Positions 17,844 through 30,099 of a stretch of 64,000 nt of DNA are shown piece after piece. The DNA lies in contig JAPYSB010000004.1 in assembly GCA_029936675.1 (NCBI GenBank), forward strand, positions 1 to 64,000. The letters are read 5' to 3'. Each line of letters starts with the position of its first letter. Positions within the stretch are counted from its first letter, which is position 1. This DNA comes from Dehalococcoidia bacterium (GTDB lineage Bacteria; Chloroflexota; Dehalococcoidia; Lucifugimonadales; UBA826). The position numbers were made by a program, and so were the translations under genes. The notes beneath the pieces are model-generated. The model searched no databases. It was not told where the DNA came from and saw only the letters and a list, made by a program, of their open reading frames with translations.

Positions 17844-18845
17844 CTAGGTCTCTGAAGTTAATGTTCTACCCATCAATTCCTCTCTAGCATCTCTCACCGA
17901 CAAATTCTTAAACAAAATATTGTATACAGCTTGGGCAATTGGTAAATCAATATTTAGCCGATTAGCAACTGACACAACAGCTTTCGTCGTTTCTATACCC
18001 TCAGCCACGTTGTCCATAGATTTTTCGATTTGATTCAAAGGCATATCTTTGGCTAGCATCCTGCCGACTTGGTTATTGCGACTCAATCTCGACGAACAAG
18101 TTGCTATGAGATCTCCCATTCCAGCAAGGCCAGAAAAAGTAGACGATTTCGCCCCGATGGCACTACCGAAGCGGGCCATTTCTGCGAGACCTCTGGTTAT
18201 GATCGAAGCCTTTGCGTTATCTCCTAAGTTAAGTCCGTCACATACCCCGGCAGCGATTGCGGTAATATTTTTCAAGGCCCCGCATATTTCTACTCCTATT
18301 ACGTCAGTGTTTGTGTACAAACGTAGGTGAGAACAGTTAAGTATCGATTGAGCTGATTTTGCTGTTGTTAAATTAATAGAACATATTACTGATGAAGAAG
18401 GTTTACCCGCCAAGATTTCGTTAGACAAATTGGGTCCAGATAGAACGCAAATGTTATCGGGCGACAAATTGGGTATCTCTTCTTTTATTATTTCTGTCAT
18501 TCTCATGCCAGAAGTAGATTCCAGACCTTTCGACGCACTTACTATGATAGTGGATGCAGAAACATAGGTTGATACCACCCTGATATTCTTTCTCAAGCTC
18601 TGTGATGGTACTGCTATTATAAGTAAATCTGTTTTGGGAATAAGGTCTTGGGGTTTTGATGTTACTTCAAGAGTATCTGGAAATGTGATCCCCGGTAGAA
18701 AACGTTTGTTTTCACGATGTTTTTGGAGTAGATCCGATTCTTCTTTAGTTCTTACTATAAGAGAAACATGTTTTCCTTCTTCTGAATTAATTATGGCTAG
18801 TGTGGTGCCCCATGTAGTTGAGCCAATGATTGCTATATGAGCCAT
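17844..18845 (-). CDS. gpsA: Glycerol-3-phosphate dehydrogenase [NAD(P)+]
   Basis: Reduces dihydroxyacetone phosphate to sn-glycerol-3-phosphate, the backbone for phospholipids. The 333 residues carry the signature SGPNLSNEI and a C-terminal catalytic region with GDNAKASIITRGLAEM and SGLAGMGDLIATC. The Rossmann glycine motif is GSTTWG rather than the usual GxGxWG, with Thr replacing the second Gly. It is placed directly after plsY, which uses its product. Identification is firm. Confidence 0.95.
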   Translation of the reverse strand: MAHIAIIGSTTWGTTLAIINSEEGKHVSLIVRTKEESDLLQKHRENKRFLPGITFPDTLEVTSKPQDLIPKTDLLIIAVPSQSLRKNIRVVSTYVSASTIIVSASKGLESTSGMRMTEIIKEEIPNLSPDNICVLSGPNLSNEILAGKPSSSVICSINLTTAKSAQSILNCSHLRLYTNTDVIGVEICGALKNITAIAAGVCDGLNLGDNAKASIITRGLAEMARFGSAIGAKSSTFSGLAGMGDLIATCSSRLSRNNQVGRMLAKDMPLNQIEKSMDNVAEGIETTKAVVSVANRLNIDLPIAQAVYNILFKNLSVRDAREELMGRTLTSET

Positions 18846-23341: not shown

Positions 23342-24301
23342 ATGGGTAATGGGATCTACGGATTGAACTCTAAATCTGATGGTACTGTGCACATGCCCGT
23401 AATGGTTTCTGAGGTTCTGAAAGCCTTTGAGACTAGCCCAGAAGGGTGGTTAATTGATGGTACCTTTGGGTTAGGAGGTCATTCTTCAGCCCTACTTGAA
23501 AGATATCCACACAGGAAGGTTTTTGGTATTGACCTTGATGCTGATTCCCTTGCAATGTCGAAGGAAAGATTTCGAAAATTTAATAATCGGACTCTAATAG
23601 TTCATGGGAATTACGCAGATATGGCGATTTTGGCGCAGGAATCAGGTATAGACCCGGTGGGGGGAATACTGTTGGACCTGGGGTTGTCATCCATGCAATT
23701 AGAGACTTTAGGGAGAGGATTTAGTTTTAGGAATGACGAAATGTTAGATATGAGATATAACCAATCACAGGGACTACCTGCTGCTGAGTTGGTAAACACC
23801 TTTGAGAGTGATCAATTGACTAATATTTTTTCAAATTTCGGGGAAGAGAAAGCAGCAAAACGTATTGCAAAGGCTGTGTGTCAAAATCGGCCTATTATGA
23901 CTACGGGTAAGCTAGCGCAGATCGTGCAAGAGACGGTAGGTAGACGAGGGAAATCTAGAAGACATCCCGCAACAAAAGTTTTTCAAGCTTTACGAATAGC
24001 GGTTAATCAGGAATTTGAGAACATAATTAAGGGTTTGTCCTCAGGTCTTGATTTGCTCTCTGATAGGGGGAAATTTGTGGTACTAACATACCATTCCCTT
24101 GAAGATAGAATTGTTAAGCAGTTCTTTAAAAAGGAGTCTTTGGATTGTGTATGTTCGACGCGAATTCCTTTTTGTGTATGTGATCATAAGTCCCGGCTTA
24201 GGATTGTTACAAAAAAAGTAAAAATCCCTACTATCGAAGAGGTGGCTTTTAATCCCCGAAGTAGGAGTGCCAAGTTGAGAATAGTTGAGAAAATATATTG
24301 A
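23342..24301 (+). CDS. rsmH: 16S rRNA m4C1402 methyltransferase
   Basis: Methylates N4 of C1402 in 16S rRNA. About 319 residues from the ATG at 23342; in-frame starts at 23279 and 23300 are possible but lengthen the protein beyond the conserved HMPVMVSEVL start region. The SAM site is DGTFGLGGHSSALL. LDLGLSSMQL and YHSLEDRIVKQFF are family signatures, and RSRSAKLRIVEK closes it. This is normally the second gene of the division and cell-wall cluster, yet no mraZ precedes it and no ftsL or mur gene follows. Its stop overlaps an alternative TTG start of ftsA. Confidence 0.94.
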   Translation: MGNGIYGLNSKSDGTVHMPVMVSEVLKAFETSPEGWLIDGTFGLGGHSSALLERYPHRKVFGIDLDADSLAMSKERFRKFNNRTLIVHGNYADMAILAQESGIDPVGGILLDLGLSSMQLETLGRGFSFRNDEMLDMRYNQSQGLPAAELVNTFESDQLTNIFSNFGEEKAAKRIAKAVCQNRPIMTTGKLAQIVQETVGRRGKSRRHPATKVFQALRIAVNQEFENIIKGLSSGLDLLSDRGKFVVLTYHSLEDRIVKQFFKKESLDCVCSTRIPFCVCDHKSRLRIVTKKVKIPTIEEVAFNPRSRSAKLRIVEKIY

Positions 24302-24312
24302 ACCAGGCATCC

Positions 24313-25554
24313 ATGGGAACCGACTCTGAGTTAATCGCAGCCATAGATGTTGGTAGCACTAAGGTATGTACAATTCTAGCTCGTAAATCTAGAGGAGGAT
24401 TTCCTGAAGTAGTTTCTTACAGTGTTGTTCCTTCCTTCGGTGTCACAAAAGGTAATGTGGTGGATGCCAATGCGGCGAGCCAGGCTATTCGGAAAACTAT
24501 GAGCGAAATTCGTTCTGATGTGGGGGTGGATGTTAAGTCTGCATACGTGGGTATCACAGGGTCCCATATTGGGTATGAGAACAGGGTCGATTATTTTTCA
24601 GATATTGGCAGACAAGGGGTTGTGACGTTAGATGAAATTGCCAAGATCCCCTCTATGGTTTCTGACGGGTTACAGATACCAGGTAGGGCAATTATCCATT
24701 CCTTACCTATTCATTACGGTGTGGATGGGCACGATGGTATAAAAAACCCTGTAGGGATGCATGTTACTGGTTTAGAAGTGACAACTCATTTGATTACAGC
24801 TGATTCCTATTTTGCTGATAAGTTGAGAGAGGCAGTAACGTTGTCAGGAATAGAATTAAAGTCGATGGTATTGGAGCCATTTGCTAGCAGCGAAGCTATA
24901 TTGACACAAACAGAAAAAGATATTGGATCGGCTGTTGTTGATATTGGTGGAGGAACTACAGACATTGTTTTGTTTAGGAATGGAAGTGTTGTTTTCACCG
25001 CTGCCATCCCTGTTGGGGGATTCCAGTTCACCAACGATATTTGTTTAACTTACAACGTGGAGTTTCCAGACGCAGAAGAAGCTAAATTAAGATACGGACA
25101 TACCAATTTAGCCGCCGTGGATTTAATGGAAGTTGTTCCTATTTCCCCTGTTGGGTCTTCAGCCAACATAGAAATAAGAAGAAGGGATATATGCCAATTG
25201 ATGAGGGAACGAGCTGTGGAACTTATTCGATTAGTAGATTTGAAATTGCAGCAGGGAGGGTTGAAAGAGAATCCTAATTCCTTGGTTTATATAACTGGTG
25301 GCGCATCGCAGTTACCGGGTTTCTATGAAATGGCGGAGCAATTTATACCGAATTGCCAGGTAAGAAGAGGAATTCCAGATTTTCTTATGAGAATGACTGA
25401 TGAGTTACGAAAACCTTGTTACTCAACTGCAGTAGGAATGATATTGCATGCTTTTCGTTCTGAAAGTTCGGCAGAAAGGCAGTTGGGTATTAAAGATACT
25501 GTGGAAGATTCGGGATTTTTGAGAAGATTAATGAATGGTTTAAGGTTGGGTTAG
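24313..25554 (+). CDS. ftsA: Cell-division protein FtsA
   Basis: Actin-like ATPase that tethers FtsZ to the membrane. It has about 413 residues, with the phosphate-1 motif AAIDVGSTKVC at the start and AVVDIGGGTTDIVLF (phosphate 2) near residue 205. A YITGGASQLPG segment (adenosine motif) lies near 330. The C-terminal GFLRRLMNGLRLG looks like the amphipathic membrane-targeting helix. I use the ATG at 24313 with AGG before it; a TTG at 24298 overlapping the rsmH stop is the alternative. Confidence 0.93.
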   Translation: MGTDSELIAAIDVGSTKVCTILARKSRGGFPEVVSYSVVPSFGVTKGNVVDANAASQAIRKTMSEIRSDVGVDVKSAYVGITGSHIGYENRVDYFSDIGRQGVVTLDEIAKIPSMVSDGLQIPGRAIIHSLPIHYGVDGHDGIKNPVGMHVTGLEVTTHLITADSYFADKLREAVTLSGIELKSMVLEPFASSEAILTQTEKDIGSAVVDIGGGTTDIVLFRNGSVVFTAAIPVGGFQFTNDICLTYNVEFPDAEEAKLRYGHTNLAAVDLMEVVPISPVGSSANIEIRRRDICQLMRERAVELIRLVDLKLQQGGLKENPNSLVYITGGASQLPGFYEMAEQFIPNCQVRRGIPDFLMRMTDELRKPCYSTAVGMILHAFRSESSAERQLGIKDTVEDSGFLRRLMNGLRLG

Positions 25555-25589
25555 ATTGCAATGGGTATTTTGTTTTTTTGGAGGTACAT

Positions 25590-26651
25590 ATGACTATAAG
25601 TGGTAGGGAATTAGAGGGAGTGGCCAAGATCAAAGTTATAGGAGTAGGAGGTGGTGGTTCTAATGCGGTCTCTCGTATGTTTAGAGAGAGGATTTCAGGG
25701 GTTGAATATATTGTCATGAATACTGATATTCAGGCTTTATTGAAAAGTGATGTCCCTAACAAGATAAGGATAGGAGAACAGCTGACTCAAGGAATGGGCG
25801 TTGGTGGAGATCCTGATAAAGGTTCTGCTTCTGCTGAAGAGAGTAGGGAAGAAATATATGATGTGATAAGAGATTCTAATATGGTTTTCATAGCTGCAGG
25901 AATGGGGGGAGGTACGGGTACAGGAGCTGCACCAGTGATAGCAGAAATAGCTCAGGAAACCGGTGCTTTAACGGTTGGGGTTGTGACGAGACCATTTGCC
26001 TTTGAGGGGATAAGGAGATCAAACCAGGCTCAAATTGGTATAGAAAGATTACAAACTAATGTAGATACTTTATTAGTCATACCCAACCAAAGGCTTAGTA
26101 TTATTTCCCAAGAGGAAGTGTCTGCAGAAAATGCATTCAGATTAGCGGATGATGTTTTAAGGCTGGGAGTTCAGTCGATAACAGAGCTTATTACTAACCC
26201 AGGCGATATAAATTTGGACTTCGCTGATGTTCAGAGCATAATGAGAGATGCAGGACCAGCCTGGATGTCGATCGGGCATGCATCTGGTTCTACGAGGTCT
26301 CGTGATGCAGCGCAAGAGGCCATTACTAATCCTCTGATGGATGTTTCGATAGAAGGAGCTACTGGAGTTTTGTTCAATATAACGGGTGGGACTGACCTAA
26401 AACTTTCAGAACTTCATGAGGCGGCGGAAGTCATACAAAGGGTTGTTGATCCTGAAGCGAACATAATTTTTGGTATGACCACGGACCACAAAATGGAAAA
26501 TGAAATCAAGATTACTATCATAGCAACAGGGTTCCCTACTACTGATACCTTGCTTCAACGTGACATGGCTAGAACAGTTGAGGCCGTCAATAGAGTGGAA
26601 ATAAATGAAGACTCACTGGATCTTCCTCCATTTCTAAGGAGAGGCGGTTAA
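25590..26651 (+). CDS. ftsZ: Cell-division tubulin FtsZ
   Basis: GTPase that polymerises into the division ring. It has 353 residues from the ATG at 25590, which has a full GGAGG 5 bases upstream. The tubulin signature GGGTGTG lies at residues 106-112, after [13 protein letters not shown] near residue 18. The C-terminal peptide that binds FtsA is recognisable as LDLPPFLRR, but the linker between the core and this peptide is only about 25 residues, shorter than in most bacteria. It lies 35 bases after ftsA. Confidence 0.97.
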
Positions 26652-26717
26652 AATAATCCGGCAATAAATTTTATTACCCAAGGAATCGCACTGTTTGAAA
26701 ATCCCCATTGTTAGAAC

Positions 26718-26746
26718 CCTCTTTTGTGAATTTTTGTTCAAAGAGG
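26718..26746 (+). terminator. Hairpin downstream of ftsZ, possible weak terminator
   Basis: CCTCTTT (26718-26724) pairs with AAAGAGG (26740-26746), and an inner GAA pairs with TTC. No T-run follows immediately, so termination is uncertain; it may only stabilise the 3' end. Confidence 0.3.
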
Positions 26747-26840
26747 ATCTAAATTTTCCATTCGTGCCTAAGCTTACCTTTACTGTATAAAAATCTCTAA
26801 AAAATACTGATCTCTCCCCCTTGAGACTTTTTTTAACAAA

Positions 26841-26856
26841 CCTCAATATATAGCGT
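26841..26856. promoter_or_regulatory. NrdR box 1
   Basis: The 16-mer CCTCAATATATAGCGT matches the known NrdR box pattern (ACACwATATATwGTGT) at 13 of 16 positions. It starts 31 bases before box 2, the spacing typical of tandem NrdR boxes. It overlaps a plausible -10 region 17-18 bases downstream of TTGAGA (26821-26826), so binding would block transcription. Confidence 0.7.
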
Positions 26857-26871
26857 AACCTCACGTCAGTA

Positions 26872-26887
26872 GCACGATTTATAGTGT
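26872..26887. promoter_or_regulatory. NrdR box 2
   Basis: The 16-mer GCACGATTTATAGTGT also matches the NrdR pattern at 13 of 16 positions, with an intact TATAGTGT right half. Fifteen bases separate it from box 1, three helical turns start to start. It lies 62 bases upstream of nrdR itself, consistent with autoregulation and control of nrdJ. Confidence 0.7.
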
Positions 26888-26949
26888 GTTTGGTGATGCT
26901 TACTGGTGGTGCTTTCAGTCTTTTTTGAGTGTTGGAGTTTGCTTAATTT

Positions 26950-27504
26950 ATGTACTGTCCTTTTTGTAGTAATGAAAATTCTAGAGTGATAGATTCTAGA
27001 GATTCAGACGAGAGTATAAGGAGGAGAAGAGAGTGCTTGACTTGTGGCCTTAGATTCACGACATACGAAAGGATACAAACCAGAGCTCTTATCGTGGTTA
27101 AAAGAGATGGAAGGAGAGAGGAATTTAATAGAGATAAGCTATGGTCGAGTATGAAAAATGCTTGTGCTAAAAGGCCACTGCCAATCGGCAGTATTGAAAA
27201 AGCTATAGATGAGATCGAAACATACCTGGTTAGTGCAGGGAGGGCAGAAATGTCCTCGAGGGCAATAGGTGAGTTGGTGATGCAACGCCTCCGCAACCTT
27301 GATAGGGTAGCTTATATAAGGTTTGCTAGTGTGTACAGAGATTTTAGGGATATAGAAAATTTTAAAGAAGAAGTCGATGCGCTATTGCAACCCAAGGAAG
27401 AAGAGGCCAGTAGCCAGTTGTCATTTCTTAAAGACGATGAATTGACTCCAGTGGGGCGCAGAAAAAGAGGAAGGAAACCCAAAAAACCGACAACCCGAAT
27501 TTAA
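26950..27504 (+). CDS. nrdR: Transcriptional repressor NrdR
   Basis: Represses ribonucleotide reductase genes when dATP is high. The N-terminal zinc ribbon has CPFC at residues 3-6 and CLTC near residue 31. The ATP-cone follows (VVKRDGRREEFNRDKLWSSM, about residues 50-70). At 184 residues it is longer than the usual 150-160, because of a basic, acidic and proline-containing C-terminal tail ending in RKRGRKPKKP. The gene sits between two NrdR boxes upstream and nrdJ downstream, so both target and regulator are local. Confidence 0.95.
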   Translation: MYCPFCSNENSRVIDSRDSDESIRRRRECLTCGLRFTTYERIQTRALIVVKRDGRREEFNRDKLWSSMKNACAKRPLPIGSIEKAIDEIETYLVSAGRAEMSSRAIGELVMQRLRNLDRVAYIRFASVYRDFRDIENFKEEVDALLQPKEEEASSQLSFLKDDELTPVGRRKRGRKPKKPTTRI

Positions 27505-27513
27505 AAATAAGCC

Positions 27514-27543
27514 AGAACAATGTATAATCCGTACAAATGTTCT
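27514..27543. promoter_or_regulatory. Dyad around a TATAAT between nrdR and nrdJ
   Basis: AGAACA (27514-27519) and TGTTCT (27538-27543) form a perfect inverted repeat with a nested GTA/TAC pair. A TATAAT (27523-27528) sits inside. This could be an internal promoter with an operator for nrdJ. The dyad does not match the NrdR box pattern. Confidence 0.35.
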
Positions 27544-27612
27544 ATATTTATGGTAATTACTAAATTTTAAAGAGATATTTTAAATTAACATTTGAATTGA
27601 GGAGTAGCGTTA

Positions 27613-30099
27613 ATGACTCAGGGAGTAGTTTCAGGAGGGTCTTCTAATAGTGGTGGCAGGGAGGAAATTAGAGAAGACGTTGTAAAAGCCTTGGAATCAG
27701 TGGGGATTTCTGGTGAGGCTGCTGCTGCACTGACTAATACAATAATAGAATCAGGTGGCATTGATATATTGGATGAGAATGTCCAAAACGACGGATTGCC
27801 TTTGTCGGATAATGCCAGGTTCATTATTGAGAAGCGGTACCTCCGAAGAGATGATGAAGGAAGCCCAATTGAAGATCCAGATGGACTTTTTAGAAGGGTG
27901 TCCAACGCGGTAGCTCTTGGAGAGCCAGAGGTCAAGCAGGCTGAATATGAGGAAAAATATTATGAAATAATGTCCAACCTGAAATTCCTTCCTAATTCTC
28001 CGACTTTGGTGAATGCGGGTACCGGTAGAGGTTGCTTGTCAGCCTGTTTTGTTGTTTCTCCAGAAGATAATATTCAATCCATAATGAAAGTTGCTAACGA
28101 TGCAGCCATGATCGAAAAATGGGGAGGAGGCATTGGATTTGGATTATCAGATTTACGACCAAAGCAGGATCGGATATCCACCACACATGGACAGGCGTGC
28201 GGGCCTATTGCCGTGATGAAACTTTTTTCAGCGGTTGGGGCTACTCTTACCCAAGGGGCCTTTAGGTTAGGTGCCCACATGGGGCAATTAATCATTAGTC
28301 ATCCTGATATAAGAGAATTCATACATTGCAAAGATGATGATGACACTCTACAAAATTTCAATATATCTGTTCAAATAACGGACGATTTTATGAAAGCAGT
28401 AGAGAATGATGACGATTGGAATCTCATTAATCCTAGAGACACAGGCGACGGGCCTGCAAATGAAATTTTAGGAACAGTTAAGTCACGAGATTTGTGGGAC
28501 GAAATAGCCGAATCGGCATGGAAGACTGGAGACCCAGGGGTAGTGTTCGCAGACAGAGTTTGGGAGACGGCGCCTAATCCTCAAATGGGCAGAATAAAAA
28601 CAAGTAACCCTTGTGGGGAGGAATTTTTAGAAAACTACGGCAACTGTTGTTTGGGATCAATTAACCTTGATGCCCATATAACAGAAAATGATTTTAACTG
28701 GGAATCTTTGGAAGAAACTACTAGAACCGGAGTTCGTTTCCTTAATGATGTGATTGAAGTTAATTCATTTCCGTTACCTGTGCTACGTGAAGTCAATTTG
28801 GACACCCGTAGGATTGGTTTAGGGGTCATGGGCTGGGCCGATGCTCTTGTTAGGATGGGGCTACCCTATGACTCGGAAGAGGCCTTGAGTCTCGCTGACA
28901 AATTAGGAGGTTTTTTGAACAGGATTGCCTGGGATGAATCAGCCAGAGTTGCCGAAGAAAGAGGACCTTTCCCAGAATATGAGAATTCGGCATTGAAGGA
29001 ATGGGGTATGCCTCCAGTAAGAAACGCAAGTGTAATAACTATCGCGCCAACCGGAACGATTAGCCGAATAGCTGGTTGTTCCAGCGGTATTGAACCTCAT
29101 TTCGCTTTGGCTTGGTGGTCAAATGTATTATGGGAAGATCATGAAGGTACAAGTTCTAGACTTTTAGACTCACCATCTTCAATTCTTGAAAGTTTGAAAT
29201 CTGCTATAGGAACTGAAGAAGCTGCCAGGGAGGTTTTGAAGCAAATCGTGGAGAACCCTGATAATGCGGAAAGAATTATGGGTAGCCATGGTCTGGATTC
29301 AGATGTGTATAGAACAGCCATGAATGTTTCGGCTGAAGCACATGTAAAAATGCAATCGGTTTGGCAAAAACATGTAACTAATTCTGTGTCTAAAACCATC
29401 AATTTGGCTAATACAGCTACCGTACAGGATGTGAAAGACGCATACTGGTTAGCTTGGGAAACAGGATGTAAAGCAGTAACTGTGTATAGAGACGGGTCTA
29501 AATCAATGCAGGTTCTAGAAACAGGTAAAACCAAATCCAAGGAAGAAGAAAACCAAGGAGATCACCTGAAAGTTCCAAGGCAGCGGCCAATGTCAGTAAC
29601 TGGTGTTACGGATCGAGTGAGAACAGGCCACGGTACGATGTTTGTCAACATAACATTTGACGACGAAGGACATCCATTTGAAGTATTTGCAAATTTAGGT
29701 AAATCAGGAAGTAGCGATTCTGCTTATTTGGAGGCAATCGCAAGGCTGTCTTCGATGGCATTGAGAGCTGGAATCGATCCTTCACAAATAGTGGACCAAT
29801 TGAGAGGCATTACAGATGTTCCTGTTTGGGATGGAGGCACCCTGGTAAGATCTGCCCCAGATGCCGTCGCTTTAGCTTTAAGTAGACATCTAACTAATCC
29901 GAACGATGGGTCCAATGTGATTGACAGTGTTGCAAGCTCGGCGCAGTTAGGATTGTTTCCCTCCACAAACAAAGAGAACGACCAGCAAGATAACTCAAAT
30001 ACTGCCAGTGGAGCTAAATGCCCGGAATGTTCTGGATATTTACTTCACCAGGAAGGCTGCCTGAGCTGTCCTGATTGTGGATACAATAAATGCGAATAG
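27613..30099 (+). CDS. nrdJ: Adenosylcobalamin-dependent ribonucleotide reductase (class II)
   Basis: Reduces ribonucleotides to deoxyribonucleotides using a B12 radical, with or without oxygen. The protein has 828 residues. FLPNSPTLVNAGTGRGCLSA starts the barrel near residue 120, NPCGE near residue 334 carries an active-site Cys, and APTGTISRIAGCSSGIEPHF is the class II signature near residue 478. A zinc-ribbon tail has CPECSGYLLHQEGC followed by CPDCGYNKC. GAGGAG precedes the ATG. No B12 riboswitch is visible in the 108-base leader. Confidence 0.96.
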   Translation: MTQGVVSGGSSNSGGREEIREDVVKALESVGISGEAAAALTNTIIESGGIDILDENVQNDGLPLSDNARFIIEKRYLRRDDEGSPIEDPDGLFRRVSNAVALGEPEVKQAEYEEKYYEIMSNLKFLPNSPTLVNAGTGRGCLSACFVVSPEDNIQSIMKVANDAAMIEKWGGGIGFGLSDLRPKQDRISTTHGQACGPIAVMKLFSAVGATLTQGAFRLGAHMGQLIISHPDIREFIHCKDDDDTLQNFNISVQITDDFMKAVENDDDWNLINPRDTGDGPANEILGTVKSRDLWDEIAESAWKTGDPGVVFADRVWETAPNPQMGRIKTSNPCGEEFLENYGNCCLGSINLDAHITENDFNWESLEETTRTGVRFLNDVIEVNSFPLPVLREVNLDTRRIGLGVMGWADALVRMGLPYDSEEALSLADKLGGFLNRIAWDESARVAEERGPFPEYENSALKEWGMPPVRNASVITIAPTGTISRIAGCSSGIEPHFALAWWSNVLWEDHEGTSSRLLDSPSSILESLKSAIGTEEAAREVLKQIVENPDNAERIMGSHGLDSDVYRTAMNVSAEAHVKMQSVWQKHVTNSVSKTINLANTATVQDVKDAYWLAWETGCKAVTVYRDGSKSMQVLETGKTKSKEEENQGDHLKVPRQRPMSVTGVTDRVRTGHGTMFVNITFDDEGHPFEVFANLGKSGSSDSAYLEAIARLSSMALRAGIDPSQIVDQLRGITDVPVWDGGTLVRSAPDAVALALSRHLTNPNDGSNVIDSVASSAQLGLFPSTNKENDQQDNSNTASGAKCPECSGYLLHQEGCLSCPDCGYNKCE

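Follow-up and report, generated by a model that had tools for sequence, protein, structure and literature searches.

The predicted gene for an NrdR-type repressor lies on the same strand as, and directly ahead of, a gene for an adenosylcobalamin-dependent ribonucleotide reductase in a 64,000-nucleotide stretch of Dehalococcoidia DNA (the window), which raises the question of whether regulator and enzyme are expressed from one control region or more than one. The first-pass annotation had proposed a single autoregulated region, marked by two NrdR-like sites upstream of nrdR. The features on which the question turns are as follows.

24298-25554, ftsA, preceding ftsZ
25578-26651, plus strand, ftsZ, upstream neighbor (TIGR00065 over cut-off)
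26722-26742, no strand assigned, conserved block TTTTGTGAAWTTTTGTTCAAA (eight species of the genus agree at 20 of 21 columns)
26821-26826, plus strand, TTGAGA, candidate -35 element of the nrdR promoter (6 of 6 columns invariant in the eight species)
26841-26856, plus strand, NrdR box 1, CCTCAATATATAGCGT (13 of 16 positions as in the consensus; 3 mismatches)
26872-26887, plus strand, NrdR box 2, GCACGATTTATAGTGT (13 of 16 positions as in the consensus; 3 mismatches)
26950-27504, plus strand, nrdR, repressor with Zn-ribbon and ATP-cone (PF22811 and PF03477; TIGR00244 over cut-off)
27613-30099, plus strand, nrdJ, adenosylcobalamin-dependent class II ribonucleotide reductase (TIGR02504 over cut-off)

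The family matches of the last two genes bear out the identities, a regulator and its class II target, on which that proposal was based. NrdR matches the structures PDB 9fvr/9fzf and 7p37, retains R12, D15, R17 and the RRRR run of the Streptomyces coelicolor protein in an alignment to 7p37, and has its closest relatives in SAR202/Dehalococcoidia genomes; its gene is present in all eight genomes of the genus and in 92 of 98 genomes of the order, including all 50 that are nearly complete. NrdJ contains domains PF00317, PF02867 and PF12637 only, and no ATP-cone was detected in it by domain search, so that the sensing of dATP for NrdJ would fall mainly to NrdR. In the genome (2.19 Mb, 96.5% complete), nrdJ is the only reductase large-subunit gene detected, and there is no match to a class III reductase. 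A cobalamin riboswitch would be a natural candidate for a B12 enzyme; it was set aside, as no Rfam match to it or to any other known RNA reaches gathering scores in the window, and the segment from 26500 to 27750 gives none even when the limit is relaxed to E=1.

Gene order was compared at 108 loci after removal of duplicates, many of them with incomplete flanks, so that the neighbor counts are lower bounds: ftsZ lies upstream of nrdR at 60 or more loci and nrdJ downstream at 83 or more, at least 46 loci carry both on one strand with nrdR, and 11 have neither. At seven loci (L090, L091, L095, L096, L108, L126, and L127), nrdR is followed by pdxA and proC, and nrdJ is absent from the 3-kb flank; the box pair scores 18 to 22 of 32 there, and the reductase of these genomes is probably encoded elsewhere.

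Scored against the NrdR box consensus ACACWATATATWGTGT, the two 16-base sites each match at 13 positions, with mismatches at the edges of both boxes. In a pattern search of the window they lie 31 bases apart, start to start, with a 15-bp spacer (26857-26871), and they fall between TTGAGA and the start of nrdR; in all of this the sequence agrees exactly with the first-pass description. A lone site of this kind is unremarkable, occurring at chance frequency in both the window and the genome. With up to three mismatches allowed, the window holds three single sites where shuffling predicts 1.05 (three are attained in 9 of 100 shuffles), and the whole genome holds 22 versus 41 for the pattern read backwards. 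Such figures would fit two AT-rich palindromes paired by chance, a reading that is nonetheless rejected as highly improbable, given that no pair with both sites at 13 of 16 or better arose in 3 Mb of Markov model sequence of intergenic composition, and given the conservation and spacing described below. Nor does the window contain a second position pair of this quality at spacings from 17 to 60. Of the 20 other genomic sites listed, 15 were checked, and for these the best partner at 30 to 33 bases on either side reaches 9 of 16 or less; the site at 17910 of the window, among the other five, lacks a partner scoring at least 13. As for further NrdR targets among the 22 single sites of the genome, no strong second pair was found.

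Conservation was assessed in an alignment of 13 distinct upstream regions, comprising eight species of the genus (the window included) and the loci L023, L036, L060, L061, and L062; L001 and L053-L059 are represented by others with which they are identical over the last 200 bases. Within the genus, all 16 columns of box 1 and 11 of the 16 columns of box 2 are invariant, and C4 and G13 of both boxes (26844, 26853, 26875, and 26884) are invariant in all 13 promoters. The invariance of box 1 and of these four G/C positions argues against chance pairing. At orthologous loci, where the first-pass annotation would have taken absence of the sites as refuting it, the boxes are thus conserved. TTGAGA sits within a run of 12 invariant columns in the eight species. 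As background, 5 of 15 columns are invariant in the spacer between the boxes, 17 of 62 from box 2 to the ATG (with gaps in 16 of the 62), and 2 of 62 at 26660-26721 (L007, incomplete there, was left out); the segment 26743-26817 is intermediate, at 27 of 75. Between these last two segments lies the block TTTTGTGAAWTTTTGTTCAAA, which contains an imperfect GAAW-TTTT-GTTC inverted repeat and is the sole copy in the genome within three mismatches; LexA, at a weaker site of its kind, or another regulator may act on it upstream of nrdR.

The spacing of the boxes was surveyed in 103 nonredundant regions upstream of nrdR, each at most 200 bases long, the majority from Chloroflexota and some from other phyla (five of the 108 loci were dropped as duplicates, and L001-L008 were not included). 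With ties shared, the best spacing is 31 in 50.6 regions, 32 in 6.2, and 33 in 3.4, counts that are inflated by kinship among loci; about half of the regions favor 31, the helix-phased spacing originally proposed, and about half have a best spacing other than 31. With a score of at least 24 there are 27 pairs at spacing 31, 12 at spacing 33, and fewer at other spacings, and the shoulders at 29 and 33 are probably two-base register shifts of a repetitive box. The peak at 31 is a further point against a chance pair. Scoring of box pairs covered 80 loci, of which 10 are titled as other phyla and one more, L112, as a Methanophagales archaeon. The NrdR boxes of L112 have the same sequences as in the Dehalococcoidia locus L089, and L112 is probably a mis-binned contig.

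With respect to the promoter, there is probably an overlap between box 1 and the -10 region of the putative nrdR promoter. An alternative -35 element, TTAACA (26833-26838), lies 17 bases before TAACCT and would place box 1 inside the promoter spacer; the loci L023, L036, and L060 have TTGACA at this position. TTGAGA was provisionally preferred as the candidate -35 element because only one of six columns of TTAACA is invariant in the genus.

Taken together, these results suggest, with a probability of roughly 0.85, that 26841-26887 is an NrdR operator. The edge mismatches of both boxes, the regions with other best spacings, and the low pair scores at the seven loci lacking a nearby nrdJ weigh on the other side. 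The box pair, with nrdR and nrdJ after it, is predicted to overlap the promoter. At high dATP, NrdR loaded with dATP and ATP would form a tetramer bound to both boxes, which are separated by three helical turns, covering the -10 region and the start of the nrdR promoter; it would thereby shut off nrdR and the downstream nrdJ, combining autorepression with repression of its target. The nucleotide requirement and the dependence on phase are established for other NrdR proteins, according to two reports (PMC12051234, PMC9110341), and are expected here from the conservation of NrdR residues.

Whether this control region is the only one for nrdJ is a separate matter. The 108-base gap between nrdR and nrdJ contains a conserved block, running from TGTATAAT to CGTACAAATGTTC, that stands out and that was overlooked in the first-pass annotation. 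Its claim of a shared control region is strengthened by authentic NrdR and NrdJ, phased tandem boxes, and conservation, and is incomplete with respect to this second element. The features of the gap are as follows.

27500-27505, plus strand, TTTAAA, weak -35 candidate of an internal nrdJ promoter, from a consensus scan, overlapping the nrdR stop codon
27523-27528, plus strand, TATAAT, candidate -10 element of the internal nrdJ promoter, from a consensus scan and conservation
27531-27542, plus strand, GTACAAATGTTC, LexA-like (SOS) box, with a pattern that also occurs before lexA and recA in the genus

TATAAT occupies the candidate -10 position in seven of the eight species of the genus, with TACAAT in the eighth. 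In the consensus scan, the internal promoter hexamers do no better than shuffles (2 found versus 2.5 expected). The conserved TATAAT and LexA-like box suggest that nrdJ is probably served by an additional, separate promoter. One might go further and propose that nrdR and nrdJ are transcribed separately, with the boxes serving as genuine NrdR sites for self-repression only and nrdJ depending mainly on a LexA-type promoter. The conservation of TATAAT and of the LexA-like box in the gap would suit such an arrangement, as would the lack of a second NrdR pair ahead of nrdJ, where the best pair scores 18 of 32 in the window and 17 to 21 in ten relatives. However, the downstream position of nrdJ at so many of the 108 loci speaks for a joint unit, a purely self-controlling NrdR would presumably be pointless in an organism with a single reductase, and no terminator-like site was found between the two genes, although this carries little weight with just 0.9 expected. 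Separate transcription is accordingly regarded as unlikely, and we infer co-transcription of nrdR and nrdJ from the upstream promoter, with the internal promoter as an addition to it.

The Gram-positive SOS (LexA) box is CGAACRNRYGTTYG. The gap box matches this consensus at 12 of 14 positions, and is not remarkable when judged on it alone, as 12 matches with up to two mismatches occur in the window versus 8.1 expected. For this reason, the lexA promoters of the genus were inspected. LexA is encoded (TIGR00498 over cut-off) in six of the eight genomes, including that of the window, and all six lexA promoters carry, after TTGACA, a site that fits GYACANYTGTTC fully or nearly, whose left half is GTAC in three and GCAC in three; all six also carry an inverted site, GYACTAATGTTC, with GTAC in two and GCAC in four. 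The recA promoters of all eight species contain an inverted A[TG]ACAWATGTTC, which departs from the pattern GTACNNNTGTTC at one or two of its nine fixed positions, and an upstream site, scored in the seven promoters that reach far enough, that is exact in three and has one or two changes in four. Relative to the Gram-positive GAAC-N4-GTTC, the pattern here, GYAC-N4-GTTC, differs at one fixed position; like Gram-positive SOS boxes it stands before recA and lexA, whereas its left half is GTAC or GCAC and nrdJ would be among its targets.

At nrdJ, GTACNNNTGTTC is exact in seven of the eight species, and the eighth has GCAC, the same change as that seen at lexA. It is also exact in L023, L036, L061, and L062 and matches at eight of nine positions in L060. 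Only 0.00015 occurrences would be expected in a gap of nrdR-nrdJ composition, a figure to be read in light of the pattern having been chosen post hoc, after the nrdJ and lexA sites were known. The same limit applies to the genome of the window, where 14 exact matches were found versus 6 for the backward control. Three of these 14 lie outside open reading frames, before lexA, recA, and nrdJ and nowhere else, at 68, 125, and 82 bases, respectively, from the first start codon. Another exact match falls within a gene for a protein of the metallo-beta-lactamase fold (L162), 37 bases past its first possible start, and could be upstream of that gene's true start. Further LexA targets were sought among matches to CGTACAWATGTTCK with one mismatch, which gave three more sites; the four proteins scanned beside them (thiolase-like, TsaD, a hydrolase, and one without a family) are not encoded by repair genes, and the candidates were discarded.

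The identity of the gap element is less firmly indicated than that of the NrdR boxes. It may instead belong to the internal promoter or be bound by a different regulator, a minority reading that draws on its imperfect palindrome and on the finding that no repair gene other than recA and lexA has an exact box outside open reading frames in the genome. In addition, the exact box is limited to close relatives, most other loci having no convincing box (L013 and L015 have no nrdJ within reach for the comparison). In the same gap of L011, L018, L020, L021, and L025, which belong to three other families of the order, there is the element TAGACCANNTGTTC, which is plausibly the same LexA-like box after drift; as it is just a possible deeper variant, it too leaves room for a regulator other than LexA. 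Set against this is the recurrence of one pattern in the promoters of both lexA and recA across the genus, with lexA, recA, and nrdJ as the sole exact matches outside open reading frames in the genome. It is therefore considered probable, though well short of certain, that a LexA box controls the internal nrdJ promoter.

According to the preferred reading, nrdJ would most likely be transcribed both from an operon promoter that NrdR autorepresses and from its own promoter repressed by LexA. The putative LexA box, at the predicted start region of the internal promoter, would form a second input within the operon: LexA would repress this promoter, DNA damage would release it, and damage would thus raise nrdJ alone while leaving the gene for the NrdR repressor unraised. 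On balance, the evidence favors a model in which the sole B12-dependent reductase of these marine SAR202 relatives is placed under two nested repressors, NrdR-dATP and LexA.

With the clean phylogenetic footprint of the NrdR operator, the rule of two boxes in fixed phase with conserved G/C pairs is carried over to a marine lineage that is uncultured. Should the LexA box prove real, a lineage that has a single reductase would have its supply of DNA precursors wired to both damage and dATP, and GYACNNNTGTTC could then be used as a candidate LexA motif when the damage regulon of these bacteria is annotated. The element TAGACCANNTGTTC in three other families, if related, would make dual control old in the order.

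Precedents exist for both inputs. The nrdRJ operon of S. coelicolor, as described in PMC9110341, likewise has nrdR followed by class II nrdJ with tandem boxes upstream; its critical pairs, at 9/18 and 40/49, are also 31 apart, the NrdR residues R12, D15, R17, and RRRR are common to both proteins, and inversion of the critical G/C pairs, whose equivalents here are C4 and G13 of each box, lowers NrdR binding about 50-fold. Among bacterial NrdR box pairs at large, 16-base boxes with a 15-base spacer, as found here, belong to the common 15-16 class, and no difference from that architecture was seen in the accessible portion of PMC12051234. An overlap of NrdR box 1 with the -10 element, as predicted here, is reported for Pseudomonas aeruginosa in the text available from PMC4409342. 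Unlike S. coelicolor, the present locus has ftsZ upstream and a LexA-like box in the nrdR-nrdJ gap; the S. coelicolor locus tags place lexA (SCO5803), nrdR (SCO5804), and nrdJ (SCO5805) side by side (PMC9739823). A literature search on LexA and nrdJ, class II reductases, Chloroflexota, and SAR202, which mostly did not extend to subscription papers, returned no report of LexA control of nrdJ, including in the accessible parts of PMC9380542, PMC9739823, PMC4409342, PMC8233155, PMC2864759, PMC5738425, PMC4211646, and PMC6472365. Two of these sources, within the portions available, do connect the regulons: both aerobic reductase subunits of Marinobacter atlanticus are in its LexA_SOS set (PMC8233155), and lexA and recA have negative fold changes in a table for an anaerobic nrdR mutant (PMC4409342); links between the NrdR and LexA regulons therefore exist in print. 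Thus, the NrdR part of the locus appears ordinary, with gene order, spacing, and contact residues as in S. coelicolor nrdRJ. Relative to the sources available, control of a reductase by DNA damage is not new as such, and the LexA part is the fresher piece.
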